Below are positions 3,176 to 27,851 of a DNA stretch of 29,262 bases, piece after piece. The notes beneath the pieces were generated by a model. That model did no database searches, was not told where the DNA came from, and saw nothing but the letters and a program-made list of their open reading frames with translations. Both the position numbers and the translations under genes were made by a program. Every line of letters starts with the position of its first letter. Within the stretch, counting starts at the first letter, position 1. Origin of the DNA: a virus. The stretch lies in the IMG/VR virus record IMGVR_UViG_3300020220_000244, positions 1 through 29,262 of that record; one strand, 5' to 3'.

Positions 3176-6100
3176 ATGATCACAACAGGGTTTGAAACAA
3201 GGGTAAAAGTTCAGCAAATCATTGAAAATCAACTCCCTGAGTTTATATTATCTGAAAGCCCAAAAGCAGTTGACTTTTTAAAGCAGTATTATATTTCTCA
3301 AGAGTATCAAGGCGGTCCTACTGATATTTCGGAAAATCTTGATCAATATTTAAAGGTTGATAATCTAACTCCAGAGATCATTGTTGGATTCACTTCGTTA
3401 ACAAGTGCCGTTTCATCTTCTGGTACAACTATTTCCGTAAATTCCACAAAGGGATTTCCAGAAAAATATGGTCTATTAAAAATTAATAATGAGGTAATTA
3501 CATACACAGGACTGACGACAAATACATTCACTGGATGTATTCGTGGATTTAGTGGAATTACAACGTATAGATCAGAAAATAATCCTCAAGAATTAGAATT
3601 TTCAACTTCTAGTAGCGATTCACATATTTCGGGAACAAGAGTTGAAAATTTAAGTTCTTTATTCTTAAAAGAATTTTACAATAAATTAAAATATTCTCTA
3701 ACTCCAGGTCTTGAAAATGTTGATTTTGTATCTAATTTAAATGTAGGTAATTTCATAAAAGAAGCAAGAACTTTTTATGAAGCAAAGGGAACCGAAGAAT
3801 CGTTTAGAATTCTTTTTAATGTTCTATTTGGATCAACTCCAAAAGTAATTGACCTTGAGCAATTTCTTTTAAAACCCTCTTTTGCTAATTTTCTTAGAAG
3901 AGAACTAATAGTTATTGAAGCAATTTCTGGTGATCCAAATAAACTTGTTGGTCAAACTATAATCAGATCAAAAGATTCTGAAACAAACGCTTCGGTTTCT
4001 GAAGTTGAAATATTCACTCGTACACCAAAGGTAGGATATGCTCAAACCTACTATAAAATAGGTTTGTTTGTTGGTTTTAGCGAAGATGATTTAATTAATG
4101 GTACTTTTGAAGTTACTCCAAATACAAAAGTTTTAAAAACAGTTTCTGTCGGATCTTCAATTATTAGTGTTGATTCTACTATTGGATTTGGACAAACTGG
4201 AACATTAGTTTCCTCTGGAAATGTAATAACTTATTCCGATAAAAGCATTAATCAATTTTTTGATTGCTTAGGAGTAGATTCACAAATTCCAACAGCTTCG
4301 GATGTAAGATCGGATGACATTTATTATGGATATGAGAATGGAGATCTTGATAAAAAAGTAGAGTTTAGAATAACAGGATCGCTATCTTCTTTTGTTCCAA
4401 CATCGGACATTATTTCTGCCGTAGAAGGAGAAAAAATTTATGTTAAAAATGTTGGAGAGAAAATAAAAAATCCTGCAGGTGATAAAACTTATAAAGAAAT
4501 ATTCTTTAATTCGTGGGTTTATAACACTAGTTCAAGATATGAAATTGAAACTATTTCTGGATCAACTTTTACATTAAAATCCAATATTGATAAAGCGTCA
4601 TTAAAAGTTGGAGATTTTGTTGATATTTTAGGATCTAATTCTAATAATGTTGTTGTTTCTAGCGCAACAGTATCATCCATCGATCAGAATTTAAAGCAAG
4701 TAATTTTAAATAATCTGGGTGGATTTACTCCTGGAGTAGATTTAAGTTATGATTTGATACGAAATAATAATTACGCCTCTAGTTCTGGTGCGGTTATTAA
4801 TGGTGGAAATGATAAAATTTTATCAGATGTACAAAATTCATACAATGATGCTGATGAATATTTTTACGTTGCTTCAAACTCTTTACCATCATATCAAATT
4901 AGTGAAGATGTACTTTACTCACAAATTAATGCTGCTGTAGCTGGATCAACAGTTCAAGGATATGATGCGTCTACAGGAACTTATTCAATAATTTCATTCG
5001 GTTCAAATGTTCCATTCATTACGGGTGACAAAGTTTATTACAAACCAGGTGGATCTCCAATTCAAGGATTATCTGAAGGAACTTACTATGTTAAAGTAGT
5101 TGGATCTGGAAACCAGATTAGATTATACTCATCAAGGTCTTTCATAGATATTGATGATTATCTAACCTTTTATCCAACTGCTTCTGGGGACGGTTATCAT
5201 AAGTTTACTTTAGATAGTCAGAAAGATTCTTTAATTGGTCCAAGAAAACTTCTTAGAAAATTTCCATCACAGTCAAATATTTTAAATTCTGAATCAACAG
5301 AAACAACAGTTGGGTCTGTTGGTATGTTGATCAATGGTGTTGAAATTGTAAATTATAAATCAGATGATAAAGTATACTATGGTCCTTTAACCGATTTAAA
5401 AGTATTAAATATTGGATCTAATTATGATGTAATTAATCCACCATCAGTTCAAGTATCTTCTCCATCTGTTGGAACAACAGCATTAATTCAACCAGTTGTT
5501 AGTGGGTCAGTTCAATCGGTGGTCGTTGATCCGTCTGAATTTGATATAGCAAATGTCATTTCAATATCAATCACTGGTGGTAATGGTAGTGGAGCGGTTC
5601 TTGAACCAGTTCTTAGTAAAAGATATAGAGAAATTTCTTTTAATGCTCAAGATATTTTATCTTCTGGTGGATTGGATTATAATAATGAAACCATTACATT
5701 TTTAATAAATCATAATTTACAAGACGGTGAAAAAATTGTATATAATAAAAATGGAAACGATGAGATAGGTATAGGAACATTTGGTGGATCTAATACATCA
5801 CAAAATAAAACTCTAGTGAATGGTTCAATTTATTATCCAAAAATTATTAATAATAAAACTGTAAAACTTTTTGAAACAGAAAAAGATTATTTTTCTGGTA
5901 TTAATACAGTTGGATTTACAACAATTGCCAATCAGGGAATACACAAATTTAGGGTATTTGAAGGGAAAAATAACATCTCTAAGATTAAAGTTATTAATCC
6001 TGGTGATGGGTATACTCATAGACAACTTAAAGTTAAAACCTCAGGAATTTCTACTTCAGAAAGTATAGTTATTTTCTCAAATCATAATTTTAAGAATGGT

Positions 6101-9100
6101 GAAATTGTAAATTATTCTACTAGTGGAACTACAATTAGTGGATTGAGCACTTCTAATCAATATTATATTATTACAGAAAAATCTGATACGTTTAGACTTG
6201 CCGATGCTGGAGTTGGTGGCACCATAACTTCAAATTATGAAAGAAAAAAATATGTAAAGTTTGAAAGCACTGGATCTGGATATCAAATTTTTTCTTATCC
6301 CGAAGTTTCTTTAAGTATTAATGTTTCTTATGGTAGTAGTATTGCTGGAATTATAACAGCAACTCCAGTTATAAGAGGTAAAATAATTGATGCTTATCTA
6401 TATGAAAATGGAACAGGGTATGGTTCCACTACACTAAATTTACATAAAAAACCAATCATTACTGTTAAAACTGGAAAAAATGCTGAATTAACTCCAGTTA
6501 TAACTGATGGTAGAATAGAAAAAGTTGTAATTTTAAGTTCTGGATCTGAATATAATGCTGCCCCAGATTTAGTCGTTAATGGTAATGGTAACGGAGCAGT
6601 ATTAAGAGCAGTTGTTACAAATGGATCTGTAACTGATGTTATTGTCATTAACTCTGGTGCTGGATATACAAAAGAAAAAACAACTGTAATAGCAAATGCT
6701 CCTGGATCTGGAGTGTTATTTGACATATCTGTTAGAAATTTAACATTAGATAATCAAAATAGATTTGGAAATGAAATTCTAGTTCAAAATGAAGGTAGTT
6801 TAGAATATGGAATTGTAGGATATTCTACACAGATTGGAAAATCAATCGCTGGAGATGATGGAAATCAACACTCGCCTATCGTTGGATGGGCATACGATGG
6901 AAATCCAATTTACGGTCCATATGGATATTCGGATTCAGAGAATCAAAATTCATATCTAAAATTAGTCGAAAGTGGATATACACTAGATATTAATTCTGTA
7001 ATAAACAGACCACCTGGTTTTGCATCAGGATTTTTTGTTGAAGACTATCGTTATGATGGTTTAGGTGATTTAGACGAACACAATGGTAGATATGGAAAAA
7101 CTCCAGAATTCCCACAAGGTGTTTATGCTTATTTCTGTGGAATTAAAACAGATACTTTTACATCAAGTTTAATATCAGAATTTCCATATTTTATTGGTAA
7201 TTCATTCAAATCTAAGTTTTATTCGGAAAATAAAACTCTAGATCAAACTTTTGATTTTAATTCTTCAAATCTAGTCAGGAATTCATTCCCATATAACGTT
7301 GGTGAATCCCATGCTGATAATGATTTTATTTTAGAATCTTATGAAATAAGCAATCAACAAACAAATGTTGATTCTGTTTCTGTTGGATCAGTTGATTCAT
7401 TTACAATTGTTTCTCCTGGAGAGGATTATAAAGTTGGAGATGTTGCTAATTTTAATAATGAAGGAACTAATGGTGGTGGATTAACAGTTTCAGTATCATC
7501 TCTGGTTGGTAAAAATATTGTTGATTTAGCAACATCTATAGAAACTTATGAGGGTTCTTTACTTACTTGGAAAACTCCAAGTGAAGTGGAAGTAAAGATT
7601 TCGCCATATCATGACTTATTAGATAATGATTACGTTGTCTTATCTGGATTAACAACAAATATTAATCGATTATCAAGAAGTCATCAGATAGGAGTTATTA
7701 CAGAATATAGTTCTCTATTGGCAGAGGTGCCATCTAATGCCATATCTGGAGTAGTGACCGACATATATCTAACTAGAAATTTTGAAACAGTTTCTGTTGG
7801 ATCCACAATTGGAATTGGAACAGAAATTTTATCAGTTCTCAATATCTTTAATCAGGAAAAAGTTTTAAGAGTTAAAAGAGGACTTGTTGGTTCTGCCCAT
7901 ACAGCATCTACAATAGTTAATATATCTCCCGACAAGTTTATCGTGCCAGTTTCTGTAGAATATTTTGATTCAAAGGTTGATGATAAAGTTTATTTCAATC
8001 CAAAGAGTTCAGTTGGTGTAGGAACAACAGCAGGAATTGGTGTTGCTGTAAATTTCAAATTAGGTGAAGTTACCAAAGTCATTTCAGTACCAACTCAAAG
8101 CATATATTTACCAAATCATCCATTTGAGAATAATCAAGAAGTAACTTTTAATAAAAAGAGTTCATCAAGTGCTATTTTAGTAAGCACCACTTCTAGTGGA
8201 ACGCCTTTCAATCTTCCATCCACTGGTAACTCACAAACACTATATGTAATTAGTAAGTCCAAAGATTTTATTGGATTAGTAACCTCCGTTGGATTAACAA
8301 CTAATACCGATGGATTGTTCTTTACAGATAATGGAACAGACAATCATGAGTATTATCTCGAATCAAATTATGATCAAATTACAGCAAAAGTTGAAAAAAT
8401 AAAAACAACTGTTTCAGTTTCAACTTCACATGAATTAAAAGTTGGAGATACTGTAACTCTTAACATAACACCTTCAACAACTGTTGGTGTTGGAACTTCA
8501 ACAGCAGTAAGAGTAAAATATAATTCATCTATTGAAAAACTTTTAATCAATAGAGTTGGTTTTGGATCTCAAGCAGTTAATAATTTAACTGATAAGATTA
8601 ATATTCAAAATCATGGATATAGAACTGGTGATAAAGTTTTCTATGATGCCTCTGATTTAATATCTGCTGGACTACAGACAGGAAAATATTTTGTTTATAG
8701 AATTGATAATAATAGTTTCCAATTAAGTGAAACTTACACGGATATAACCTCAATACCTCCAGTTATTGTTAGTATCGCTGGAACTGGAGGGGCAAATCAA
8801 GAATTTAGTCTTGTAAATCCAAAAATAGAATCAATTAGAGGTAATAATTTAAAGTTTGATCTTTCAGATTCTTCTCTTCAAGGATATGATTTTAAAATTT
8901 TTACAGATCAAAATTTTAGAAATGAGTTTATCTCTGTCGGTAATACAGCACCCTTCAGTATTACTGGAGTAGGAACAATTGGTGTTTCAACTATTGCTTC
9001 ATTAACCATTAATTATGATGCTAATATTCCACCAAAACTTTATTACAATGTTGAAAAGTCTGGATTTATAAGCACTTCAGATACTGAAGTCAACAATTAT

Positions 9101-12100
9101 TCAGAAATCTCATTTGTTAATAGCAAGTATAATTCATCATATTCTGTTATCGGCATTGGAACAACAACATTTAATATTTCTCTCCCAAGAAATCCAGAGA
9201 GATTAGATTATTCTCCATCAAATTGTGAAACAATTGAATATACAACAATTTCGACTAATGCTAAAGGTGGAGTCGATAAATTAAGAATTTTATCTGGTGG
9301 ATCAAACTATAAATTGGTTCCTTCTTTTACAAACATTACTTCAGAAGAAGGTAAAAACGCATCAATTATAGCAAGTTCAAAAACAATAGGTAGAATTAAA
9401 AATACTACAATTTTAGATCAAGGTTTTGAATATTCAGTAGATAGAACCTTAAAACCAGAGGCATATATCTCACCAAGAATAACTCTAAAAGATTCTGGTG
9501 AAATTTCAAAAATTGATATTATTAGTGGAGGTAAAAATTATACTTCTCCGCCAGATGTAGTTGTAATTAATGGTGTTACTAGAGAAAAAATTAATTCAGG
9601 ATCACTTTTAGCAAATATTACATCAAGTTCAATTACATCGATCGATATTGTAAGAACTCCAAAAGGTCTTTCATATGTAAATAATGAAATTTTTACAGAA
9701 AATAATACAAATGGAGTTGGTATTAATACACTTTCCAGTTCTTCTTCTGGAATTGTAACCTGTTTCCTTGTAACTCCGGTTTTGGGTTATACCACCCCAC
9801 CATTTACTGTTGGTGATAAAATTTATGTTGAAGGTATTCAGAATAATGATTTTTCAGGAACTGGATTTAATTCAAGCGATAATGGATATGTATTTTTCAC
9901 GGTTGATTCTTTTACAAATTCAAATCCAGCTGTTTTACAATTTAGTGTTTCTGGAGTAACAACCAATCCAGGATTAGCTAAAACAATTCAATCTTCTTAT
10001 GCAACAATTATTAAGTATAGTGATTATCCACAATTTGAAGTAACAACAGACTATTCCCAATTTGCTTTTGGAGAAGCATTATTGAGTAAGTTAGATGAAA
10101 ATGATCTTTATTCTGTAAAAGATTTGAATGTTACTGAATCAAATGATGATGCTCTAAAAGTAGTTGGAACATACGTTCTATCCGAAGGTGAAATTATCCT
10201 TGGCCAAAAATCTGGATCAGTAGCAACTATTGAATCCGTTTCCAAAAATAGTGGTGTATTTTCTATAGGATACTCACTACAAAAAAATTATAGTTGGTCA
10301 AATGATACTGGTAAACTCGATGTTGATTATCAAGTTTTACCAGATAATGATTATTATCAAAATCTTTCATATACTGTTAAGAGTCCAATAACTTATGAAG
10401 AACTTGTCAATCCAGTAAATAGATTGGTCCATACTGTTGGTCTTAAAAACTTTGCCGATACTGAAATTCAAACAGAAACAAGTGTTGGATCTGGATTAAC
10501 TGCTGTTGAAAATACAACAATTGTTAGAGACATTTTAGAAGAAAAGAGAGTCGATACGATTAACTTCTATGACAATGTAGTTGATATTGATACTATTACC
10601 AACAGTCCAGTTAAATCTAAGTTCTTAAAACTTAATAGCAAAACTTTAGCAGATTATATTCAATGTAATACAAACAGAGTTCTAAAAATTGATGATTTTA
10701 GCTCTCAATTTAGAAATAACAGTAATATTACTGAAAATTATGTTGACATAGTTTCTTATGATAACACTTTCTCAGAATTTTTAATTCAAACTATTGATCC
10801 AAATGGCGATCAAAGACAACTTACAGAATTACTTGTTCTTAATAGTGGAAGTGACGCTGTCACAATACAAAAATCTTCACTATACAATACAGAAAATGAA
10901 ATAGCTGATATTGAAGCTAATTTAGATGAATTTGGTAATCTTTCTCTAAGATTCTATCCAGAGGATGTATCAAATACAGATTATGATATTAAGGTATTAA
11001 GCACAGAATTTAATTCACTTCTCAGTGGAATTGGAACTCAGAGTGTTGGATTTATCAATATGATTGGTGCCAACAAACTAGTTGGTATTGGATCTACTGA
11101 AGTTGTTATTGGATTTAGTACCTTAACAACTTCTTCAATATATGCTAATTTCCAAGTTTATGATCAAACTAGAGATAAATTCAATTTTGTTGAATTAGAA
11201 ATAGATCATGATGGACAAGATGTTTATATATCAGAATTTTACAGTGATGGAAATCAAGGATCTGTTGGTGGTCAAATAGGCACATTTGGTATTAATATTA
11301 ATTCTGGTGTTTTAGCACTCGATTTTTCAAATAATTCTGATGCTCCATTATTAGTTAGAGGTAATATTATTGGGTTTGGTTCAACTTCAGTTGGAGTTGG
11401 AACTTATAGATTTAAAACTTCTAGTCAACCAGATGGATCAGAAAGAAGTGTTCGTATTGAATCAAACTATTATGTTGCTTCTTCAACTTCAACTATTATC
11501 TCTTTAGACAGAGATCTAGTTTCATCAGTAAAATCCTTGGTTAGAGTTTCTTATGGTGACACAACATCAATTCATCAAATAATGATGATTCATGATGGGA
11601 CAGATGTTTATATTAGACAATATCCATTTATTTCTGTTGGTAGTACTGGTGGAATAGGAACTTTCTTTGGAGCATATTCTGGATCTAATCTTGTACTATC
11701 ATTCTATCCAGATCCATCAATTGTTGGAAACTATACAATTGAAAGTTTAGATAAAATTTTCTATACAGATACGGACACTGTTAATAATCCCCCAACATTA
11801 ATATATGGAACAATTACTCAAGATGTAAATCTTGCCTTCTACAATGCTCCAAATAATGAAAGATCCAATAAATTAGATTTTGATGCTACTTATAATGGGA
11901 CTCCGATTTTTGCCAAAACCTTTAATCCTACAGATTCTGCTATTTTAAATCCATCAACCGGAGTATTTACAATTGAAAATCATTTCTTTAGTACAGGAGA
12001 AAAGTTAAATTATACTCCAGAAAGCACAGTTATAGGAGTAGCAGCTTCTGCCGTTGGAATAGGATCAACAGCAACTGCGGTGACCTCTGGAGGTGTTGGT

Positions 12101-15100
12101 GTAGGAACAACTAATATTTTACCATCTACTGTTTATGCTATTAAAATTAATAATGATCAATTTAAATTAGCGACTACATCACAGTATGCCAATCTAAGTA
12201 TTGGTGTTACGTTTACCTCAACTGGTTCTGGAAATGCTCATGAACTTGAAATGTATAAGAGAATGGAAAAAACTGTTCTTTCTGTTGATGGAATCATTCA
12301 ATATCCATTATCTTACAGCCCAGTTTCTTATTCAATAGTTGGTAACGGTGGTCAAATTAGTGCGGCTGCAACTTATTTTGCTGTTTCTGGAATTTCATCC
12401 ATAAAACCAGCAGATCTGCTTGAGATTGAAAATGAGTTTGTTAAGGTTATCGCTGTTGGATTCGCAACAACTGCTATTGGACCAATTGATGGTGTTGGTA
12501 TAACAACTATCGTTGAGGTTAAGAGAGGTGCTGTTGGCACATCAGCAACAACACATGCAGATTCTACATCATTCCAAGTCTACAGAGGTTCTTATAATGT
12601 TGTGGGAAGCAAAATTTACTTCACAGAACCACCAAGAGGAAGTTCAGACAATAGTATTAATTCAAGCAACCTCCAAGAGGCATTTTCATCATTTAATGGA
12701 AGAGTATTCCTAAAACAAGACTACACAAATAATATAATTTACGATGATATATCAGATCAATTTACAGGAATTGGTCAAACATTTACACTGAAAGTTTCTG
12801 GAGTCAATACATCCGGAATATCAACGGGAAGTGGTATATTACTAATCAATGATATATTCCAAACACCTACTACGTTAAATAACGCAGGAAACAACTATGA
12901 ATTAACTGAAGGTGTTGGGGTTTCTACTGTAACATTTACAGGAATCACTTCTTCAAATGGTTCTATCATAATTTCACCAACATATATCAACCAAAATCAA
13001 CTTCCTAGAGGAGGTACAATTATCTCCCTAGGATCAACTAATGGATTAGGATATGCTCCATTAGTTGGTGCGGCAGTAACTGCTGTTATTGGTGTTGGTG
13101 GAAGTATTACTGCTGTTGGTATTGGATCAACCGATATATCTGGTTCTGGATATCGAGGATCGGTTAGCATTGCTGTTACTTCTAACACTGGACATGGTGC
13201 TATTGTTTCTGCTGTAGTTGGTGCTGGAGGATCTCTATCATTTGTTGTAACATCTGGTGGAACTGGATATGCTGTCACAAATACTATTGTCAGAACACCA
13301 GATCCAATATACGAAAATTTACCAATTGTGGGTGTTTCTAGATTAGGAATTGGATCAACAACACAGTCTGGAACTGGATTACTATTAAACGTTGAAGTTG
13401 GGGCAAGTTCAACAACAGGAATAGGATCTACATTATTTGAGGTTACATCATTTAAAGTTACTCGCCCAGGATATGGATTTAGAAATGGCGATGTATTCAA
13501 ACCAGTAGGATTGATAACTGCTAGAGGTTTGGCAGCACCTGTATCAGAATTTGAACTAACAGTTATTGAAACCTTTAGTGATAGTTTTGCTGCTTGGCAA
13601 TTTGGTGAACTAGATTATATTGATAGTATCGAATCTCTACAAAATGGAGTAAGAACAAGATTCCCATTAAACTATAATGGTCAACTGTTAAGTTTCCAAA
13701 CGAATCCACAAAATGTAGATTCAGCAGAAATAGATTTAAATACCTTACTTTTAATCTTTGTAAATGGTGTTGTTCAAGATCCAGGAGTTCACTATAATTT
13801 TACTGGTGGAACTTCATTTACATTTGCCGAACCACCAGAATCCAGTGATAATATTTCAATATTCTTCTATAGAGGGACCAGAGATGTTGACTCTATTATA
13901 GTTAACGTAAATGAAACTATAAAATCTGGAGATACTGTTCGAGTTATTAAAAATAATTTAATATCTGGTACAAAAACTCAGGATCCAAGAATTGTTGTTG
14001 GTATTACAAGTTCTGATGTTCTCGAAACTAACTTGTACGGAGGAGATGGAATTGATGAAGTCAATTACAAACCAATGAGTTGGACAAAACAAAAAGTTGA
14101 TAGATTTATTTCTGGTGAATTTATTTCAAAATCAAGAGATTCTATCGAAGCACAAATTTATCCAACAGCAAAGATAATCAAGAATGTTTCTTCTTCAGAT
14201 ACTCAAGTATTTGTTGATGATGCTCAATTCTTTAATTATGAAGAAAATGAATCTGCTATTGTAATTTCATCTTTTAATGCTTTAATTATTGATACTAAAG
14301 ATCCAGTTTCTGCTGCTGTAACAGCAATTGTATCTGCTGCTGGAACAATTCAATCACTTAATATTGTTTCAGCAGGGGCTGGTTATACGGGATCATCTAT
14401 TGAGGTTAAAATTGCCGCTCCAAAATATATTGGAGTTGGATTTGGTACAACCGCAACTGCAACCATACCAGTTGTTAATGGATCTCTAAGTGGAACCGCA
14501 AATATTACAAATCCAGGACTTGGGTATTCACTTACTAATCAACCAAAAGTAATTGTTCCGCTTCCAGGACCAACTTATGAAACTGTAACACCAATTACAA
14601 CTGTCGAAGGATTCTCTGGAATAATTACTGGTATTACAACTTCTACTGGAACTAGTGGGAATCCATTAGCACTTAAGTTCTTCTTAAGAGCAACTTCTTT
14701 TATTGGATTATCTCCAAATTATCCTATTTGTGTTGTTGATACTAAGGTTGGTAATGGTGTAACATCAATTGATGGTAATGATACGTCTGTAGTTGGAGTT
14801 GGAACTACTTTCCTAGATAACATTTATTACGTACACAGTATTACATCTTCTGGTGCCAATGCTGAAGTTATTACAAATATTAAATCTAATAGTTCTATTG
14901 TTGGGATAGCAACAACAGGAAGTTTGTCTTTACCTTTAGGTAGATTCTCTTGGGGTAGATTCTCTGGTTTAAGTAGATCTTCTTCAGCAATTTCTATAGG
15001 GGTTACTGGTTTGACAGTTGATGCTGGTTTAACCACATTCCCAACTATTCAAAGACGTGGATATGGATTGAGAGACACTGGCTCTCTAAGAAAAGATCTA

Positions 15101-15106: not shown

Positions 15107-15124
15107 TAGAAAAAAGCTATTACG

Positions 15125-16675
15125 ATGGCGGCAATTGTAACAGATCAGTTTAGAATATTAAATGCGAGTAATTTTTTAGATTCTATTGAAGATTCTTCCA
15201 ACTCTTACTACGTGTTTTTAAGTTTACCAAATCCAACTGCTGTTGGTTTTGGTAGAAGCACGACCTGGGATGATAATACACCAGTTCCTGTTGATGTTAT
15301 CAATTATATTAATCATGTTGGTCAAACAATGATGTTTGGCAAAAGAGTTACCTCAATTAATGCCAAAAGATTAATCAGAAGAATTGATTGGTCTAGAGGA
15401 ACTAGATATGAGATGTACAGACATGATTATAGTTCTTCCAATTTATCACCCATTACACAGTCTACAAGACTGTATGATGCAAATTATTATGTAATGAATA
15501 GTGATTATAAAGTTTATATCTGTATAGATAACGGTTCATCTGGAATTAGTATAACTGGTAATGCTTCTCAAGATGAACCACTATTTACAGATTTAGAACC
15601 ATCAAAAGCAGGTGAAAGTGGTGATGGTTATTTGTGGAAATATTTATTTACAGTTAATCCTAGTGATATTATTAAGTTTGATTCAACTGAATATATTGCT
15701 TTACCAAATGACTGGGATAATTCAACAGATGCACAAATATCAGCAGTAAGAGATAATGGAGATTCTACAGTTTATGAGAATCAAATAAAAAAGGTTTATA
15801 TAAAAGAACAAGGATCAAATTATTCTGGTGGATTGGGGCAAGAAGTTAATGTTTTAGGTGATGGATCTGGAGCAAAGGTTGTTATTGACGTTGTCAGTGG
15901 AAAGATAACAAATACAACTGTTTCATCTGGTGGAAAAAATTATACTTATGGGATGGTTGATCTTGGATCAATCAACCAAAATGCTGCTGGAACTTTTGCT
16001 CATCTAATTCCTATCATTCCACCATCTAAGGGTCATGGTTATGATATTTACAAAGAATTAGGATCTGATAAAATTTTACTTTATGCTAGATTTGATGATT
16101 CAACTAAAGATTTTCCAATTGATGCCAAATTTGCTCAAGTTGGAATTGTTAAAAATCCAACTTCAATTGGATCAACCACAGTTTATACTGAAAACCAATT
16201 TTCATCACTAAATGCTATCAAATTTTCGTCGGTAACTGGCAATTTATCTATTGGAGATAAAATAACACAATCTGTTTCTGGTGGAGTAGCACAAGGATAT
16301 GTTGCCTCATATGATAGTGAAACTAAAGTTGTAAAATATTTTAAAGACAGATCACTGTTCTTCAACCAAACAACTTTAGATCAAACAGATTATATTGGAA
16401 TCACAACCGCATCTAAAGTTTTAGATTTTGAATCATCGGCAACTGCAGTTATAACCACTGGAGGATTTTCTGGTGCTATTGATACTTCATTTACTGGAAT
16501 TACAACAAATCCAACTGGATCAAAGATCGTTGATCTTGGATCCCAATTCATAGATGGGTTAACAACATCTGAAATAAATAAAGGATCAGGGGAAATAATT
16601 TACCTAGATAATCGTCCTCTAATCATAAGAAACTCTAGGCAAAAAGAAGACGTTAAAATCATCCTGGAATTCTAA
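15125..16675 (+). CDS. 8: Baseplate wedge subunit gp8, with inserted module
   Basis: Homologue of T4 gp8, a peripheral wedge protein that binds gp7 and gp10. N-terminal AIVTDQFRILNASNFLDSI and FGRSTTWDD align with the T4 gp8 start. GDGYLWKYLFTVNPS and STEYIALP (near residues 163-195) align with its middle, and the C-terminal GEIIYLDNRPLIIRNS and IILEF align with its end. The protein has 516 residues against 334 in T4. The extra length lies mainly between the middle and C-terminal blocks, where residues about 228-285 hold two G-x-N-Y repeats (QGSNYSGG, SGGKNYTYGM) and about 370-400 hold a GDKITQSVSGGVAQGYV unit. The start at 15125 follows a TATAAATA promoter but has no clear Shine-Dalgarno. 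The next gene begins two bases after its stop. Confidence 0.92.
   Translation: MAAIVTDQFRILNASNFLDSIEDSSNSYYVFLSLPNPTAVGFGRSTTWDDNTPVPVDVINYINHVGQTMMFGKRVTSINAKRLIRRIDWSRGTRYEMYRHDYSSSNLSPITQSTRLYDANYYVMNSDYKVYICIDNGSSGISITGNASQDEPLFTDLEPSKAGESGDGYLWKYLFTVNPSDIIKFDSTEYIALPNDWDNSTDAQISAVRDNGDSTVYENQIKKVYIKEQGSNYSGGLGQEVNVLGDGSGAKVVIDVVSGKITNTTVSSGGKNYTYGMVDLGSINQNAAGTFAHLIPIIPPSKGHGYDIYKELGSDKILLYARFDDSTKDFPIDAKFAQVGIVKNPTSIGSTTVYTENQFSSLNAIKFSSVTGNLSIGDKITQSVSGGVAQGYVASYDSETKVVKYFKDRSLFFNQTTLDQTDYIGITTASKVLDFESSATAVITTGGFSGAIDTSFTGITTNPTGSKIVDLGSQFIDGLTTSEINKGSGEIIYLDNRPLIIRNSRQKEDVKIILEF
15805..15965 (+). repeat. G-x-N-Y repeat pair inserted in gp8
   Basis: Units EQGSNYSGGLGQEVNVLG and SSGGKNYTYGMVDLG separated by GDGSGAKVVIDVVSGKI. 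T4 gp8 has no counterpart to this segment as far as I can recall. It matches the units in the giant protein and gp14. Confidence 0.65.
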
Positions 16676-16677
16676 AA

Positions 16678-19600
16678 ATGCCACAGAAGACTAATTTAAA
16701 TATCAATCCATATTATGATGACTTTGATGCTAAGAATAATTTCTATCGGGTATTATTTAAACCAGGATTTCCTGTTCAAGCAAGAGAATTAACAACACTA
16801 CAGTCAATTCTCCAAGATCAGGTTGAATCATTTGGAAGTCACATCTTTAAAGATGGGTCAATGGTTATTCCTGGGAGTATCAACTACGACTCTCAGTATT
16901 ATGCTGTAAAGATAAATCCAGATCATCTAGGATTAGATGTATCTTTGTATATTGAAAATATTATTGGAAAAATAATTCAAGGTCAATCTAGCGGAAACAC
17001 AGCAAGAGTTATTAATTATATTTTACCACCAGATAATGGATCAGAATATCCAACACTGTATGTCAAATATCTAGATTCAAACAGTAATTTTGATATCTCC
17101 ACTTTTGATGATGGTGAGGTTCTAATAATACTTGATACTATCACTTATGGTAATACAACCATAAATTCGGGGGATACTGTTGCTTCTTTGATTGATTTAG
17201 ATGCAACATCAATTGGAGCGGCAGTTGGAATTACAACAGGTGTTTATTTCCTAAGAGGTCATTTTGTCAATGTAGAGACAGATACTCTTATTGTTTCTCC
17301 ATACGATAATAATCCATCGTATCGTGTTGGTTTAACCATTACAGAAGAAATTGTCAATGTTGGTATTGATACCTCATTATACGATAATGCAAAAGGATTT
17401 TCAAACTTTGCTGCTCCTGGAGCAGACAGATTAAAAATTTCAACGACATTATCTCAGAAAGAATTAACTGATTTTGATGATAAGGATTTTATTGAATTAA
17501 TTCGTTTAGAAAACGGGGAAATTAAAAAATTACAAGATAAGTCTCAATATTCAATAATCAAAGATTATTTTGCGAAAAGAACATTTGAAGAATCTGGTGA
17601 TTATTCGGTTGATTCATTTAATGTTGAAGTTGCTAACTCTCTTAATGATCGCTTATCGAATGATGGTCTTTACTTAGAAACTCAAAGAACTGATCAAGGA
17701 AATATTCCAAGTGAAGATTTGATGTGTATCAAAGTTTCCCCTGGAAGAGCTTATGTAAGAGGATATGATGTAGGTAATATTTCAACAATTGTTCTTGATG
17801 TAAACAAACCAAGAGACATTGAAAGTGTTAGTTCATCATTAATCCCATTTGAAATGGGTAACAAATTAAGAGTCCACAATGTTTTTGGAACTCCAGTTAT
17901 CGGTGTTGATAATAATAGCAATACTGTAGATCTTTATAGTCAAAGAAGGAATTCAACAACTGCTGGAACAGGAACTTTAATCGGAAAAGCAAGAGTTTAT
18001 TCTTTTGGCACAGCTGATATTTCATATTCACAAGCAACATCAGAATGGGATTTATATCTTTTTGACGTACAAACATATACAGTATTAACTCTAAATGAAA
18101 CAACTTTAGCAGCAGATTGTCCAGAAACTTCTTTTATCAGAGGTTTAAGTAGTGGTGCTACTGGATATGTTGTAGGATCCCCAAGTGGGGCAAATATAAC
18201 AATCGATCAAACTAGTGGTACTTTTATTGCTGGTGAGCAGATTTTAATAAACGAATCCTCTCTAATCTCAAGAGTTGTAAAATCTTTAAAATCTTACAAT
18301 ATTGATGACGTAAAATCAGTTTATCAAGATGCTTCCGCTCTTGGTCTCCAAACTGATTTTGTTGCTGATACTGTTCTTCAAAAAACAATTCCAGATAAGT
18401 TTAATATCACAGATAAACTTCAAATTAATACTGCCGGTATTGCTACGTGCCCAGGTAGATCTTTCCTTGGTATAAGATCAGATGCCATTATTAGATATCA
18501 ACGTCCAGATCTAACAGTTGAAACATACAACAGAGTCTCTGCAGTTTCCACAAATGGTATAACATTACAATTAACAACTGTTCCAACAGCGACTGGAATA
18601 TGTAATGGAGCTCTACCAACCAGTGATATTATTACTACTTTTGGAATAGGTTATCCACAAATAACAAATCAAGAAGAAGCATCTCTTTATGCTCGTATTG
18701 ATGAGTCAAATATATCTTCTGTAGATTTGTCTGGATCAAATCTTTTAGTTTCTTCTCAAATAACAGGAGAATCCACAGATTCTACTGGTGCGTTAAGTGT
18801 TAATATTTCAGCAACTGGTATTTCTAGTGCCTTTTTTGAAAATTATGATACAGAAAGATATGCCGTTATCTATAGTGATGGAACAATTGCTGATCTTACT
18901 TCGGATAAATTTAATTTAACTACAAATGGAACTGTTTTAAATCTTTCTGGTTTGAGAACAAGTCAGAGCAATGTAACACTAAATGTTACTGTTAGAAAAA
19001 ATTCCATTCAAAATAAATCAAAAAATTATATTAGAAGTGAAAAATTAACTATCAATAAAGTAAGTTCAGGAGTTTCAACTTCTATTAGTGGTTTAACAAC
19101 TAGTACATATTATGGGACTAGAATTGGTGATAGAGAAATTTCTTTAAATGTTACAGATGTTGTTAAAGTAATTGCCATATATGAATCACTGGACACAAAT
19201 GCACCAACACTAGATGCTTTAACATTTGTTTCTGGTTTAAGTCTAAATACTGCTTCAATCCTGGGTGAAAAGATTATTGGTGATAGTAGTGGTGCTGTTG
19301 CCCAATTAGTCACAAGATCATCTGCTACTCAGGTTGAAATTTCTTACCTAAACCAAGAAAGATTTACCGTTGGAGAAACAGTATCATTTGAAGAGTCTAA
19401 GATTGTTTCAAATATTGTATCAATTACAAAAGGAAATTATCTAGATGTAACTAATAATTTTGATTTAGATAAAGGTCAAAAGGCACAATATTATGATTAT
19501 TCAAGATTAATTAGAAAATCTAACGCTCTAACCCCATCTAGACAACTTTTAGCAATATATGATTGCTATCAAGTTCCATCTAATGATGTTGGAGATGTAT

Positions 19601-22600
19601 ATACTGTAAATTCATATACTAAAGATAGATTTACAAAAGATGTTCCTATTTTGCCAGAGGGAATCAGATCTTCAGATACATTAGATTTTAGACCAAGAGT
19701 ATCTACATTTGTTTCAACAACTTCATCACCATTTGCTTTCAGTAGCAGAAATTTTGCCGCAACAGGGACAAATCCAACTTTGGTTGTAACTCCTGGAGAA
19801 AGTTCTTTAATCGGTTATAATTTTTATCTTCCTAGATTGGATAAAATTGTACTTGATAAATTTGGCAATTTCTCAATTATTAAAGGATCTTCCTCACTTA
19901 CACCAAAAGATCCAGTAAATATTGAAGAAGCAATGGATATTGCTTTTATTAGTTTACCTGCTTATCTTTATGATCCAGCTGATGCCAAGGTAACTCTTAT
20001 TGACAATAGAAGATACACAATGAGGGATATTGGAAAATTAGAAGATAGAATTGAAAACTTAGAGACTGTTACTTCGTTGTCATTGCTTGAATTAAATACG
20101 AAGTCTTTACAAATCCAAGACGCTGATGGATTATCAAGATTTAAGAGTGGATTCTTTGTTGATGACTTTAAAAATAATGATCTAATTAATCTAAAGGACC
20201 CAGATGCTAATTGTGATGTTGATATTGAGAATCAAGAATTAAATGTTCCCGTAGATTTTTATTCATTAAAAACTGACATAGCAATTTCTCCTGGTTTAAA
20301 TGAAAATACTGCTGATTACAGTACAAATCTAGCACTTCTTGATTCAAACGTAAGAAAAACGGGAGATTTAGTAACTCTAAACTATCAAGAAAAAGGATGG
20401 ATAGAACAACCTCTTGCCTCTAGAGCAGAGAATGTTAACCCATTCAATATGATTGAGTATAAAGGTGCTCTACGCCTCACTCCTGCCGCCGACAACTGGG
20501 TTAGAAACGTTTTTGTACCTGGCGGAAGTCGTACAGAAACTGGTGGATGGGATGGATCATACATCGAAAATATTTTAATTAGTAGCCTTCCAGATACTCA
20601 TATGAGATCTAGAAACGTTGAGTTCTATTCAGTTAGTCTTAAACCACTTACAAGGTATTATTCGTTTATTGATAGTGTTAGTGGTATTGATATTATTCCA
20701 AAATTAGTTGAAATTTCGATGTCATCTGGAACATTCCAAACAGGTGAAATTGTAGATGGATTTGTTGGATCTCAAAGAGTTATTTCTTTCAGAACTGCTC
20801 AACCAAACCATAAGGCAGGAACGTATAATAATCCATCTTCCACCTATTCTATTAATCCATATAATAAATCAACTTCTATTGGTGCTTCATATTCGGCATC
20901 TTCAAGTATTTTAAACGTTGATACTGCTTCCCTTTGTGAAGAAGCACAGGGGAGATTCTCTGGTTATCTTACGATTGGTACAGTTTTGATTGGTAGATCT
21001 AGTGGAGCACAAGCTTCAGTAGCAAATCTACGTACTATTTCTGATAACTGGGGAGATCTGATTGGTGCATTCTTCATTAGAGATCCTTTGGCAACACCAG
21101 CACCAACAATTAGACTTACAACAGGGACAAAAACTTTCAAACTAACTTCTAGTTCAACTAATTCAACTCCTCTACCAGGTAGTTTGTTAATTAGTTCTGC
21201 CGAAACAACATATGCTGCCAGTGGAATTGTAGATACTTTCGCACAGGTTACTGTAACTGTAAGGAGACCACCTCCTCCTCCACCACCACCACCAGCACAA
21301 AATAGAGGTGGTGGAAAAGATCCTCTAGCACAATCATTTACAGTTGATGAAACTGGAGCATTTTTAACTTCTGTTGATCTTTATTTTGCTAATAAAGATG
21401 AAAATGAAAAGTGCTATGTACAGATAAGAACTGTTGAACTTGGGACACCAACATCGCAGATTGTTCAAGATTATGCTCAAGTGGAATTGTTCCCAGATCA
21501 AATCACAACTTCAACTGATGCTTCTGTAGCAACTAACGTTAAATTCCCATCGCCAGTATACTTACAACCCAATACTGAGTATGCTATCGTTATCCTTTCT
21601 CCAAATTCTGATCAATATGAACTTTGGGCAGCAAGAATGGGTGAAAAAACTGTTAACACACAATCCCTTCCAAACGCTGAAAGTGTTCTAGTAACAAGGC
21701 AGTATATTGGTGGAAGTTTGTTCAAATCACAAAATGGAACAATTTGGACAGCAAGCCAATTTGAAGATCTTAAATTTAAACTTTATAAAGCAAACTTTAC
21801 TGCCTCAACTGGATCAGTATCTTTCTACAATCCAACTATTGTATCAAATGATGAAAATGTTCCAGCACTCGACAATAATCCAGTTAAGACTTTACCAAGA
21901 AAACTAAAAGTAGGTGTTACAACCGAAACAACCAGTACAACTGTATTAGCAACTTTAGTTCCTGGTATTAGAGTTAAGAAAACTGGATCAACTGGACCAT
22001 ATGGATATATTGAAAAAGTTGGAAGCAGACTTACAACATCTACAACTGGAATTAGTACAGTTAGCGTTGGAACTGGTTATTCAACTGGTCAATTCTCTTC
22101 TGTTCCTCTCTATACAATTACTGGTTCTGGTAGCGGAGCTGTAGCAACAGTATCTTTCCACAATAGTGGTCTTACTACAGCAGTAATTACAACTGTTGGT
22201 ACTGGATATGCTGTTGGTGATATTCTTGGTATTACAACTTCAACAGTAACAAAAGGTAAGAACGCAACAATTTCAGTATCCACAATTAGTGGAGTTGATA
22301 CACTTTATTTGACAAATGTTCAGGGTGAATCTTTTGCTACAAATAATAACCTACAGTATTTTAATGGATCAACAAACGTTGCTCTTGGTGTTACTGTTAG
22401 AGAAAACTCTAGCGTAATAAGCAATCTATATGATGGTAGAGTTATTGAAATTTCACAATATAATCATGGAATGCATCAAGATACTAATAAAGTAATTTTG
22501 GCAGATATTGAGCCAAATACTGTTCCAACAACAATTACAGCAGATTTGGGATTAAGTGATACTTCAATTTCGGTTGCTAGCACAGCGGTATTCGCAACCT

Positions 22601-23763
22601 TTGAGGGAATAACCACTTCAAGGGGATACGCCAAGATCAATAATGAAATCATTTATTATAATAGTATTGATTCTGGAACACTTGGAATTGGATCAAGAGG
22701 AAAAGATTTACTTCTTTCTGCCACAAGATCTCATACAAGTGGAACTCAAATTTATAAGTATGAACTAAATGGTATTTCTCTTAATAGAATTAATACAACT
22801 CATACTCTTCCAAATGACGCAACACTTAAATCATTGAGAGAAATTGATAATTATCATCTTCAAATTGATAGATCAGATAGAGCAACTGGAGATACCCAAT
22901 TAAGTTTTATTGATGAAAAAAATCTTGGTGGTCCAAATGTATTTGCTTCCCAAAACTTCCAGTACAACGGAATTATTCCGCAGTACAATGTTATAACCCC
23001 AGGTCAAAATACAACTGTTTCTGCTGAAATCAGAACAGTATCTGGAACAAGTGCTAGTGGATCTGAAATTTCGTTTATTGATCAAGGATTTGAACCAGTA
23101 CAGTTAAATAATCCAAACTTTTTATCTTCCACAAGATTGGTTTGTTCTGAGGTTAATGAGGAAGAGTATCTAACTACCCTACCTAAGAAAAAGTCATTGA
23201 CTGTTAAGTTAGACCTACAATCTGCTGATTCAAATCTATCTCCTGTAATTGATACACAAACTGCTTTTGTTGCCTTAATTAGAAATAGAATTAATGATCC
23301 AATTTCGGATTATGCCAATGATCCAAGATCAAACGCAATCTTTAATGACCCACATGCTGCTGCTTATGTTTCAAATAGAGTTAACCTGAAGCAACCAGCA
23401 TCTTCACTCAAAGTTCTTGTTGGTGCTTATCGCCACTCTTCTGCTGATTTTAGAGTTCTTTATAAACTTTATAAAGCAGACTCAAGTGAAATTGAACCAA
23501 CCTATGAATTGTTCCCAGGTTATGATAATTTGAAAGATACTGATGGTGATGGATTTGGTGATACCGTGATTGATTCCACAAGAAATAGTGGATTACCAGA
23601 TGCTTTTGTTAGAACAAGTAGAGATGGTGAATTCTTAGAGTACCAATTTACTGCTGATAATCTGGATCAATTCACTGGGTTTGTGATTAAGATTGTTATG
23701 AGTGGTACAAATGAAGCATATCCAGTTAAGTTGAAAGATCTAAGAGCAATAGCACTAGCATGA
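16678..23763 (+). CDS. Large tail/baseplate structural protein with DUF4815-like N-terminus
   Basis: A 2361-residue protein in the position T4 uses for gp9-gp12. The N-terminus (residues about 6-65) contains NINPYYDDFDAKNNFYRVLF, PVQARELTTLQSILQDQ and HIFKDGSMVIPG; CIKVSPGRAYVRGYDVGN follows near 349. This set is what I know from DUF4815-type phage structural proteins. The block ASRAENVNPFNMIEYKGALR (near 1243) is also typical. A run of nine prolines (1531-1539) separates the N-terminal two thirds from a beta-rich part starting KDPLAQSFTVDETGAF. The C-terminal third has G-x-G-Y repeats (about 1795-1870), an EIIYYN...RG module (about 1955-2030) and an acidic DTDGDGFGD loop (2287-2295). It may link fibres to the baseplate or act in adsorption; this is inferred from position and architecture. 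It starts two bases after gp8 and its TGA overlaps the next ATG. Confidence 0.8.
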   Translation: MPQKTNLNINPYYDDFDAKNNFYRVLFKPGFPVQARELTTLQSILQDQVESFGSHIFKDGSMVIPGSINYDSQYYAVKINPDHLGLDVSLYIENIIGKIIQGQSSGNTARVINYILPPDNGSEYPTLYVKYLDSNSNFDISTFDDGEVLIILDTITYGNTTINSGDTVASLIDLDATSIGAAVGITTGVYFLRGHFVNVETDTLIVSPYDNNPSYRVGLTITEEIVNVGIDTSLYDNAKGFSNFAAPGADRLKISTTLSQKELTDFDDKDFIELIRLENGEIKKLQDKSQYSIIKDYFAKRTFEESGDYSVDSFNVEVANSLNDRLSNDGLYLETQRTDQGNIPSEDLMCIKVSPGRAYVRGYDVGNISTIVLDVNKPRDIESVSSSLIPFEMGNKLRVHNVFGTPVIGVDNNSNTVDLYSQRRNSTTAGTGTLIGKARVYSFGTADISYSQATSEWDLYLFDVQTYTVLTLNETTLAADCPETSFIRGLSSGATGYVVGSPSGANITIDQTSGTFIAGEQILINESSLISRVVKSLKSYNIDDVKSVYQDASALGLQTDFVADTVLQKTIPDKFNITDKLQINTAGIATCPGRSFLGIRSDAIIRYQRPDLTVETYNRVSAVSTNGITLQLTTVPTATGICNGALPTSDIITTFGIGYPQITNQEEASLYARIDESNISSVDLSGSNLLVSSQITGESTDSTGALSVNISATGISSAFFENYDTERYAVIYSDGTIADLTSDKFNLTTNGTVLNLSGLRTSQSNVTLNVTVRKNSIQNKSKNYIRSEKLTINKVSSGVSTSISGLTTSTYYGTRIGDREISLNVTDVVKVIAIYESLDTNAPTLDALTFVSGLSLNTASILGEKIIGDSSGAVAQLVTRSSATQVEISYLNQERFTVGETVSFEESKIVSNIVSITKGNYLDVTNNFDLDKGQKAQYYDYSRLIRKSNALTPSRQLLAIYDCYQVPSNDVGDVYTVNSYTKDRFTKDVPILPEGIRSSDTLDFRPRVSTFVSTTSSPFAFSSRNFAATGTNPTLVVTPGESSLIGYNFYLPRLDKIVLDKFGNFSIIKGSSSLTPKDPVNIEEAMDIAFISLPAYLYDPADAKVTLIDNRRYTMRDIGKLEDRIENLETVTSLSLLELNTKSLQIQDADGLSRFKSGFFVDDFKNNDLINLKDPDANCDVDIENQELNVPVDFYSLKTDIAISPGLNENTADYSTNLALLDSNVRKTGDLVTLNYQEKGWIEQPLASRAENVNPFNMIEYKGALRLTPAADNWVRNVFVPGGSRTETGGWDGSYIENILISSLPDTHMRSRNVEFYSVSLKPLTRYYSFIDSVSGIDIIPKLVEISMSSGTFQTGEIVDGFVGSQRVISFRTAQPNHKAGTYNNPSSTYSINPYNKSTSIGASYSASSSILNVDTASLCEEAQGRFSGYLTIGTVLIGRSSGAQASVANLRTISDNWGDLIGAFFIRDPLATPAPTIRLTTGTKTFKLTSSSTNSTPLPGSLLISSAETTYAASGIVDTFAQVTVTVRRPPPPPPPPPAQNRGGGKDPLAQSFTVDETGAFLTSVDLYFANKDENEKCYVQIRTVELGTPTSQIVQDYAQVELFPDQITTSTDASVATNVKFPSPVYLQPNTEYAIVILSPNSDQYELWAARMGEKTVNTQSLPNAESVLVTRQYIGGSLFKSQNGTIWTASQFEDLKFKLYKANFTASTGSVSFYNPTIVSNDENVPALDNNPVKTLPRKLKVGVTTETTSTTVLATLVPGIRVKKTGSTGPYGYIEKVGSRLTTSTTGISTVSVGTGYSTGQFSSVPLYTITGSGSGAVATVSFHNSGLTTAVITTVGTGYAVGDILGITTSTVTKGKNATISVSTISGVDTLYLTNVQGESFATNNNLQYFNGSTNVALGVTVRENSSVISNLYDGRVIEISQYNHGMHQDTNKVILADIEPNTVPTTITADLGLSDTSISVASTAVFATFEGITTSRGYAKINNEIIYYNSIDSGTLGIGSRGKDLLLSATRSHTSGTQIYKYELNGISLNRINTTHTLPNDATLKSLREIDNYHLQIDRSDRATGDTQLSFIDEKNLGGPNVFASQNFQYNGIIPQYNVITPGQNTTVSAEIRTVSGTSASGSEISFIDQGFEPVQLNNPNFLSSTRLVCSEVNEEEYLTTLPKKKSLTVKLDLQSADSNLSPVIDTQTAFVALIRNRINDPISDYANDPRSNAIFNDPHAAAYVSNRVNLKQPASSLKVLVGAYRHSSADFRVLYKLYKADSSEIEPTYELFPGYDNLKDTDGDGFGDTVIDSTRNSGLPDAFVRTSRDGEFLEYQFTADNLDQFTGFVIKIVMSGTNEAYPVKLKDLRAIALA
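21268..21294 (+). other. Nine-proline hinge in the 2361-residue protein
   Basis: Nine consecutive Pro codons (CCA/CCT only) after RR and before AQNRGGGK. Polyproline then Gly-rich sequence suggests a stiff arm plus flexible joint between two globular parts. It is the only such run I saw in the window. Confidence 0.85.
22060..22290 (+). repeat. G-x-G-Y repeat pair in the DUF4815-like protein
   Basis: VSVGTGYSTGQFSSVPLYTI, then GSGSGAVATVSF, then TTVGTGYAVGDILGI. This is the same unit as in the giant protein, gp8 and gp14, here in the C-terminal third of a protein of different ancestry. Confidence 0.7.
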
Positions 23764-24117: not shown

Positions 24118-24120
24118 ACT

Positions 24121-24128
24121 TATAAATA
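24121..24128 (+). promoter_or_regulatory. T4-type late promoter for fibre, neck and terminase genes
   Basis: Exact TATAAATA in the 81-base gap before the gene at 24199. No other intergenic match occurs between here and the right edge, so this promoter probably serves the run from 24199 through gp16. A weaker TATAAATT lies at 24150-24157. Confidence 0.65.
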
Positions 24129-24198
24129 TATTTTAGATCCTGATATTGTATAAATTTCATGGTTATGGGAATTTAAAACTTGCGGGAGTCACTACCTA

Positions 24199-24435
24199 AT
24201 GGCAGATATAAAAGTAAGAGTTGGCCAAAAAAATGCAGTAAAAGTTATATCTTCTTTGGCTGGAGCACAGGCTCTAACACTGCCAGAATTACTAGATGTT
24301 GACGCAAATTCTTTTGTCAATTTATACGATGGAATGGTCTTAGTTTATAATGCTTCAATTAATCAGTGGCAAGCCACCCTAACTCTTACCCCAGGAAATA
24401 CACAAAATCTAGACATTAATGGGGGTACCTTTTAG
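24199..24435 (+). CDS. Small virion/fibre-associated protein
   Basis: A 78-residue protein beginning ADIKVRVGQKNAVKVISS and ending PGNTQNLDINGGTF. The segment LDVDANSFVNLYDGMVLVYN with NQWQATL resembles the DG-x-VLVYD unit seen near the N-termini of many phage tail-fibre proteins. GGGAG at 24184-24188 is a good ribosome binding site 10 bases upstream of the ATG. Its TAG stop shares a G with the GTG start of the next gene (TAGTG), so the two are probably translationally coupled and may form one structure. A role in a fibre or whisker is inferred from this pairing and the position before gp13, where T4 has fibritin (wac). Confidence 0.75.
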   Translation: MADIKVRVGQKNAVKVISSLAGAQALTLPELLDVDANSFVNLYDGMVLVYNASINQWQATLTLTPGNTQNLDINGGTF

Positions 24436-25586: not shown

Positions 25587-25587
25587 A

Positions 25588-26433: not shown

Positions 26434-27851
26434 TGGCACTTAACCCTTTCTTTCTACAAGGTTCTCCAAGTGAGCAAAGACTCGTACAAAGTCTTATCAA
26501 TGAACATCTGCAGATATTTGGTGTTGAGATAACATACATTCCAAGAATGTTTGTTAACAAAAAAACAATCATTGAAGAAATACAATCTTCAAGATTTGAT
26601 GATAATTATTCAATTGAAGCATATGTGAACACATATGAAGGATATTCTGGAGCTGGAGATATTTTAACAAAATTTGGAATGAGTTTAAGAGATGAAGTTA
26701 CTCTAACAATTTCTAAAGAAAGATTTGAAGATTTTATAGGTCCATTTTTAGGTTCTGCTGGAGATGCCTATGAGGTTGAACTTTCTAGTCGTCCAAGAGA
26801 AGGTGATTTAATTTATTTTCCATTAGGACAAAGATTATTTGAAGTTAAATTTGTTGAACACGAGCAACCTTTTTATCAATTGGGAAAACTTTATGCTTAT
26901 GAATTAAAGTGTGAACTATTTGAATATGAGGATGAAGTTATTGATACCTCTATTGCTGAAATTGATACTCAAGTTGAAGAAGAAGGATTTATTACTACTT
27001 TAAATCTTATTGGTGTTGGTAATACAGCAAACATAACACCTTTTATTGGAACCGGATATATTCAAGAAATTACATTAACAAATGATGGTAGTGGTTATAC
27101 TTCTGTTCCAACAGTGGCAATTACAACATCACCATCGGGTAATCCTCTCCATAATGCCTCTGCTGTTGCTATAACGACGGTTAAGTCTGGCGTTTATTCC
27201 GTAAAAGAAATATTGATAACAAATGCTGGAACTGGATATACTGTAGCACCAACAATATCGATTATTAGTTCACAAGGAGCTGGTGCGGTAGCAACATGTG
27301 CGATTAATACTTCTAATTATGGAATAGTTAGAACAGTTATCAATGATGCTGGAACTGGATATAGTCCATCATTTATTCCAATATTAACATTTACTGGACC
27401 AGTAGGAGTTGGATCTACAGCACTTGGTATTGTTCGTGTGAGTGCTTCCACTCAAGGAATTAGTAGTGTATTGCTTTCCAGTCCTGGATATGGGTATAGT
27501 GCCGCTGCTGTTCCAACAGCAACTGTTGGACCACCAACAATTATTACCGGAGTTGGTACATTTGCCTTTAATGAAATTATAACTGGAGAAACATCAAATA
27601 CTAAGGCAAGAGTCAAATCTTGGGATACCGATACTAGAGTTCTTAAGATATCGTTTGTTGGTATTGGGTCTACAACAGCAGGATTTATTCCTGGAGAAGT
27701 TCTGGTAGGAACAATATCATCCGCTAGATATACTATTAACTCTTATGACCATGATGACATCTATGATAAATATGCTCAGAATAATGAAATAGAAGAAGCG
27801 GCGGACGATCTTTTAGACTTTAGTGAATCTAATCCATTTGGAAATTATTAA
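26433..27851 (+). CDS. 14: Neck protein gp14, with inserted repeat block
   Basis: Homologue of T4 gp14, partner of gp13 in the neck. VEITYIPRMFVNKKTI, VNTYEGYSGAGDILTKFGM, RDEVTLTISKERF, REGDLIYFPLG and PFYQLGKLYAYELK follow the T4 gp14 order over residues 1-170. The tail DDIYDKYAQNNEIEEAADD and ESNPFGNY (about 436-472) resembles the T4 C-terminus. The protein is 472 residues against 256 in T4. The difference is a block at about 195-435 that contains four G-x-G-Y repeats (DGSGYTSVPTVAI, NAGTGYTVAPTISI, DAGTGYSPSFIPIL, SPGYGYSAAAVPT) and one FNEIITGETSNTKARV unit. The block would be expected to project from the neck. Start and stop are fixed by overlap with gp13 and a five-base gap to gp15. 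Confidence 0.92.
   Translation: MALNPFFLQGSPSEQRLVQSLINEHLQIFGVEITYIPRMFVNKKTIIEEIQSSRFDDNYSIEAYVNTYEGYSGAGDILTKFGMSLRDEVTLTISKERFEDFIGPFLGSAGDAYEVELSSRPREGDLIYFPLGQRLFEVKFVEHEQPFYQLGKLYAYELKCELFEYEDEVIDTSIAEIDTQVEEEGFITTLNLIGVGNTANITPFIGTGYIQEITLTNDGSGYTSVPTVAITTSPSGNPLHNASAVAITTVKSGVYSVKEILITNAGTGYTVAPTISIISSQGAGAVATCAINTSNYGIVRTVINDAGTGYSPSFIPILTFTGPVGVGSTALGIVRVSASTQGISSVLLSSPGYGYSAAAVPTATVGPPTIITGVGTFAFNEIITGETSNTKARVKSWDTDTRVLKISFVGIGSTTAGFIPGEVLVGTISSARYTINSYDHDDIYDKYAQNNEIEEAADDLLDFSESNPFGNY
27045..27540 (+). repeat. Four G-x-G-Y repeats inserted in gp14
   Basis: Four units of about 38-45 residues in tandem, linked by G-A-x-A-x-A/I strands and a short I/V-x-x-V-x-I-x-x-A/P-G turn. 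They are the most regular example of the family in the window and show its consensus: G-x-G-Y, four to six residues, P-T-V/I-x-I, a Gly turn, then A-x-A-x-V. Confidence 0.75.

Follow-up and report, generated by a model that had tools for sequence, protein, structure and literature searches.

Ig-like domains recur promiscuously on the structural proteins of phages (Fraser et al. 2006, as cited in PMC10385173), T4 Hoc being one example. The crAss-like phages carry tandem BACON repeats, which are beta repeats of tail proteins with bacterial surface relatives and whose role as linker or binder is unsettled (PMC6949934), and the YHYH domain (PF14240) is counted among the putative recognition domains of pelagimyophages (PMC7029224). 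Here we characterize a repeat of about 40 residues in four structural proteins encoded by a 29,262-base virus fragment (the window). Like the phage Ig-like domains, the unit is an accessory beta domain of variable presence and copy number on unrelated structural proteins; unlike them, it is a short repeat with a G-x-G-Y turn and is inserted internally, not at protein ends only. With BACON it shares the arrangement as tandem beta repeats in phage tail proteins and the relatives in bacterial proteins, but it differs in sequence family and unit length, and it is spread over neck and baseplate proteins. The YHYH domain is likewise common to phage and bacterial proteins, but in the window it is a separate, single domain, not repeated and unrelated to the units. 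Neither an Ig/Big family model nor PF13004 (BACON) appeared among the Pfam-A matches of the window proteins or of other gp14 proteins. The best working analogy is with the phage Ig-like domains, although membership of their family is unsupported.

The window carries late genes in the order gp6, gp7-like giant, gp8, DUF4815/VrlC, small genes, P0004, gp13, gp14 and gp15 (Table 1). Its gp14 is closest to those of S-SRM01 (a Synechococcus phage) and P-SSM2 (a Prochlorococcus phage), at 58–60% identity, which places the window with the T4-like cyanomyoviruses (Kyanoviridae); we regard it as a fragment of such a virus. By its PF11649 core and its homology to T4 gp14, the window gp14 belongs to the T4 head-closure family, and by its PF09215 match and T4 gp8 fold, the window gp8 belongs to the T4 gp8 family. 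The predicted gp8 model fits the T4 gp8 structures, the window protein being about 180–190 residues longer than T4 gp8. For the giant, the name gp7 comes from annotation of its P-SSM2 and S-SM2 orthologs as gp7, the baseplate wedge initiator in phage annotation. We use this name provisionally, because a Pfam scan of the giant matched no gp7 model and T4 gp7 is stated to be absent from cyanomyophages and pelagimyophages (PMC7029224). The host families, PF11649 (gp14), PF09215 (gp8), PF16075 (DUF4815) and phrog_2885 (gp7-like), are unrelated, in agreement with the different ancestry first ascribed to these proteins. The gp14 and gp15 genes of the window lie 5 bases apart; S-SRM01 has between its own copies of the two an HNH endonuclease gene (21430–21957) that the window lacks. 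Elsewhere in the S-SRM01 record (27134–31095), comparison with gene order and lengths in P-SSM2 suggests that the labels 'tail sheath' and 'terminase large subunit' have been exchanged.

Table 1 Host proteins, repeat units and other shared modules in the window. Units are named by protein residue; percentages are profile-match probabilities
Feature	Positions	Strand	Evidence
gp7-like giant, 3975 aa	3176..15103	+	phrog_2885 'baseplate wedge subunit', bits 3863; hosts several unit arrays
gp8, baseplate wedge, 516 aa	15125..16675	+	PF09215 E 4e-13; fold match T4 gp8 1n7z, E 1.2e-7
DUF4815/VrlC protein, 2361 aa	16678..23763	+	PF16075 E 2.3e-56
gp14 neck/head-closure protein, 472 aa	26433..27851	+	PF11649 E 1.1e-31; T4 gp14 structures 9mkb, 9lu4, E ~1e-24
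Unit, gp7 747	5381..5491	+	94% to gp14 352
Half unit, gp7 943	5969..6049	+	93% to gp14 352; stretch compared also overlaps another shared module
Three-unit array, gp7 1079, 1123, 1161	6374..6730	+	1123 to gp8 230, 97.3%; 1161 to gp8 270, 92%
YHYH domain (PF14240), gp7 1217-1326	6824-7153		E 4e-25; inside gp7-like giant between unit arrays
Unit, gp7 1415	7382..7495	+	94.0% to DUF4815 1841
Three-unit array, gp7 2042, 2083, 2119	9263..9610	+	to gp14 219, 89%; gp14 352, 90%; gp14 352, 94.5%, respectively
Two doubtful units, gp7 3290, 3323	13007..13210	+	88% to each other; other proteins not matched
Unit, gp7 3362	13223..13330	+	93% to gp14 307
Unit, gp7 3432	13433..13543	+	95% to gp7 1415; 75% to DUF4815 1841
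Two-unit array, gp7 3734, 3781	14339..14590	+	97.5% to gp14 307; 96.8% to gp14 352
Two units inserted in gp8, residues 219-300	15779..16024	+	alignment (T4-type gp8 lacks them); profile matches
Two units in DUF4815, residues 1786-1880	22033..22317	+	1798 to gp8 230, 93.6%; 1841 to gp7 1415, 94.0%
Four-unit array inserted in gp14, residues 208-382	27054..27578	+	alignment; AlphaFold2; HMM matches
Second module, TTIxVxSTxGFxxxGxxxIxxEIIxY...RG	3401-3565, 12203-12460, 22480-22677, 28589-28792		gp7-like giant, DUF4815, gp15 C-terminus; pairs up to 95%
Third module, NHxFxxGDKVxY...GLxxxxxYYVIxxxxxxFxLA, ~6 copies within gp7	4973-5215, 5639-5965, 6068-6295, 8093-8359, 8588-8830, 11948-12211		pairs up to 99%
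Fourth module, GExIxGxSSGAxAxV	16933-17133, 18085-18312, 19219-19431, 20920-21117, 16196-16360, 27570-27767		DUF4815 (four copies), gp14, weakly gp8 and gp7
Fourth module copy in gp14, GExIxGxxSGAxAxVxSW type, next after units	27570..27767	+	profile pairs up to 87% between proteins

The original prediction, made from the sequence of the window, was that one G-x-G-Y family is shared by these four proteins. We examined this with query-anchored ortholog profiles, for which related loci were fetched for gp14 and gp8; 47-column stretches around candidate units and decoys were compared by hhalign. A probability above 50% was reached by 38% of 156 cross-protein unit pairs, against 0.2–0.7% for decoys: 2 of 1125 unit–decoy pairs, 1 of 400 decoy–decoy pairs and 3 of 625 pairs with decoys matched for a similar G-x-x-Y/F motif. 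Several of the decoy matches can be traced to overlapping stretches, to a unit that was probably missed or to a further shared module. The top cross-protein pairs were gp7 3734–gp14 307 (97.5%), gp7 1123–gp8 230 (97.3%), gp7 1415–DUF4815 1841 (94.0%) and gp8 230–DUF4815 1798 (93.6%). Whole-profile comparison gave the same links among gp7, gp8, DUF4815 and gp14, and none from these unit hosts to gp13, gp15, gp6 or P0004.

A family HMM found 1004 units in the fetched ORFs and none after local, composition-preserving shuffling, which answers the proposal that the units be compared with shuffled sequence. Scanned over the fetched ORFs, much as had been proposed for cyanophage virion proteins, it was positive in 181 of 185 gp14, 80 of 91 gp8 and 69 of 79 gp7 ORFs, and in 0 of 182 gp13, 0 of 168 gp15 and 0 of 54 P0004-type ORFs. 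DUF4815 is the most divergent host: its units need profile–profile comparison, because a single-sequence HMM search detected them in only 14 of 138 orthologous ORFs and missed those of the window. Among PHROG profiles, the gp14 array matched the gp7 and gp8 families, a gp5-type hub family and tail fibres. An HMM built from three window gp14 units only was too narrow to rise above shuffles in other proteins, hence the ortholog profiles; whole-protein HMMER on gp7 gave negative full scores from bias correction, and 300-aa fragments were used instead. We consider it confirmed by these profile comparisons that the units of the gp7-like giant, gp8, DUF4815/VrlC and gp14 form one family of about 40 residues.

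A motif search put units at or near the places originally given for them. Most of the 17 gp7 candidates were supported; those at residues 2164, 3238 and 3290 had no cross-protein support and that at 3323 had weak support, and the original list had overlooked units at 943 and 1415, plus a probable weak one at 1033. The unit at gp7 1079 is tied to the family mainly via adjacent gp7 units in profile–profile comparison. At least three further modules are common to these proteins: one to gp7, DUF4815 and gp15, one within gp7, and one to gp14, DUF4815, gp7 and, weakly, gp8. The G-x-G-Y unit is thus a member of a small set of parts that these virion proteins have in common.

AlphaFold2 modeling of gp14 residues 180–472 (65 sequences; mean pLDDT 84) gave an all-beta array with a regular long-short-long strand pattern in each unit. 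In the gp8 model, which is poor outside the units (mean pLDDT 64), the units have the same A-B-C strand order at pLDDT ~70–85. The fold prediction proposed at the outset therefore gave agreement between gp14 and gp8, with lower confidence for gp8, and strand order, on which the two models were compared, suggests that the units of the two proteins have the same fold. The unit may be described as a small three-strand beta-repeat, in which the strands would run long (IxxIxVTNxG), short (TVTI) and long (GAxATAxV), with the G-x-G-Y turn after the first and a Gly-rich turn after the second. PDB sequence and Foldseek searches returned no relative of the gp14 array, with no PDB fold match at E ≤ 0.001; bearing on an Ig-like beta-sandwich are this negative search and the all-beta gp14 model. 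The best PDB fold rows, lysenin and eIF2-gamma, were set aside for low probability. Foldseek against BFVD returned 43 entries for the array at E ≤ 0.001, including a neck protein, baseplate wedge proteins and tail-fibre-like proteins, with low TM-scores and high rmsd across the full length.

In the gp14 protein alignment, the array comes after the beta-barrel core and ahead of a peptide conserved at the C-terminus (the ADDILDFTESNPFG tail), and the units are always N-terminal of this tail in the aligned phages. In T4, gp14 residues 178–256 are disordered before tail joining and then bind gp15 (PMC12270204); the insertion point in gp14 would therefore be a flexible arm at the head–tail junction. 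The number of gp14 copies is 0 in phiN3, which keeps the C-terminal peptide, 2 in Syn33, ACG-2014b and S-RSM4, 4 in the window and P-SSM2, and ~8 in S-CAM9, and it is constant within clades, being mostly 2 or mostly 4. In gp8, the units stand in place of a short T4 gp8 loop, with 0 copies in a T4-type phage, 2 in Kyanoviridae and, at the same place in the alignment, ~3 in a Stenotrophomonas phage. The unit had been proposed to spread by duplication and insertion. The differing copy numbers and the absence of the insertions from T4-type gp8 and phiN3 gp14 bear this out, but the spread was not recent within gp14: the gp14 arrays are old, because orthologous units (59% identical) are much closer than units inside one protein (28%), and recent spread was ruled out on the same ground. 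Some units have their nearest relatives in another protein, as gp7 1123 has in gp8 230. Units of 40 residues are too short for a firm tree from which the direction and route of transfer could be read.

The four host proteins first named are a lower bound: further phage tail proteins carry the unit as well, and it is found sporadically inside bacterial proteins. A two-unit query over bacterial and archaeal genomes found 36 loci in many phyla. The carriers on phage-like contigs included a tail-sheath protein, a gp8 and a gp7-like giant; the bacterial carriers included three SusD lipoproteins, multicopper oxidases, FGE-like proteins and a molybdopterin enzyme. In several carriers, the alignment to a single Pfam or PHROG domain extends across the units, which therefore lie inside a folded domain. 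The unit was rare in the one bacterial phylum sampled (2 of 148 genomes, seed counted) and nearly universal in cyanophage gp14 among the fetched loci. In the window the unit is on baseplate and neck proteins, as originally suggested, but the family is confined neither to these proteins nor to phages. In an uncultured Pseudovibrio contig, a tail-sheath protein (4527–6029) has two units between sheath domains. A Nonlabens contig (1593–10166) encodes a gp7-like giant in which nine units occur together with a YHYH domain; therefore, flavobacterial phages or prophages have this protein type too.

Judged from the window proteins and other gp14 proteins, neither Pfam nor NCBIfam has a model for the unit, and no library names it, in keeping with the original remark that a described function was not known; a full-text literature search for the peptide GGSGYT returned no paper, which is weak evidence of novelty only. 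Since the unit is found inside SusD, multicopper oxidase, FGE-like and tail-sheath proteins, it seems portable and not bound to one host function. A wider reading, which we put forward tentatively and hold to be somewhat less than an even chance, is that it is an undescribed, portable beta-repeat fold, mobile between phages and bacteria, that enters the interior of folded proteins as diverse in function as the head–tail connector, baseplate, sheath, SusD and oxidases, with marine cyanomyoviruses as its main reservoir.

The likeness among units might also reflect convergence of Gly/Ser/Thr/Val-rich beta hairpins without homology, as their low-complexity composition and the modest HMM scores of single units in gp7 and DUF4815 would allow. 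This reading is very improbable and already largely refuted: neither decoys from the same proteins nor motif-matched decoys scored, composition-preserving local shuffles gave no match, the elements G-x-G-Y, P, V-x-I and A-x-A keep a fixed order across ~38–40 residues, and a family-consensus query was up to 76% identical to bacterial arrays.

Given one family, the units could be modules that bind glycans and tether the virion to polysaccharide on the host surface until attachment becomes irreversible, much as the original prediction had suggested sugar binding. Binding to surfaces and glycans is documented for phage Ig-like domains (PMC10385173), and the unit occurs in phage tail-fibre families and in SusD proteins, outer-membrane lipoproteins that bind glycans; one of these SusD proteins also has a CBM_5_12 domain. 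The units themselves gave no positive sign of it, however. None of 240 sampled gp14 units (30 columns) contains tryptophan, the turn Tyr is the only conserved aromatic, and the unit sequence is not hypervariable; moreover, glycan binding would not be anticipated for the multicopper oxidases, the molybdopterin enzyme and the tail sheath that also carry units. We consider this role unlikely. Its classical form, a carbohydrate-binding module (CBM), was ruled out for lack of aromatics, and Pfam matched no CBM family in the window proteins. Assembly glue, in which the units would link neighboring gp7, gp8, VrlC and gp14 molecules by specific contacts and owe their common sequence to homotypic pairing of strands across proteins, is a role to which we give slightly less credence still. 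It draws on the beta-rich prediction for the units, on the placement of gp7, gp8 and VrlC in one baseplate and of gp14 in a hexameric ring, and on units whose nearest relatives are sometimes in another protein; but gp14 at the neck is unable to touch baseplate proteins, its copies range from 0 to ~8, and bacterial enzymes have the unit without such partners.

We favor as probable that the unit is an accessory structural beta-repeat, which would contribute outward mass and spacing as well as weak contacts to neighboring subunits or surfaces. Its variable presence on unrelated structural proteins is that of an accessory domain, and the clade-stable gp14 copy number, the lack of tryptophan and the moderate, not extreme, divergence support this reading. 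The unit would have been inserted at permissive sites of unrelated virion proteins, leaving each host core intact, probably by recombination followed by in-place duplication, and would stack in tandem. In T4, gp7 and gp8 are peripheral in the baseplate (PMC3004832), and by T4 stoichiometry the arrays on gp7, gp8 and VrlC of the baseplate and on the gp14 neck ring may project from the particle in 6 to 12 copies. Their function would then resemble that of the promiscuous Ig-like domains on other phages.

The ocean holds very large numbers of cyanomyoviruses, whose baseplate and neck proteins are much larger than the T4 counterparts. One shared repeat accounts for part of this extra protein mass, and its profile can be used to annotate unnamed parts of many virion proteins. 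The presence of the unit in bacterial SusD proteins and oxidases suggests a general insertion-tolerant module that is missing from Pfam and NCBIfam. With 0, 2, 4 and ~8 copies on one ring, gp14 provides a natural series in which the role of such accessory repeats in virions can be tested directly.
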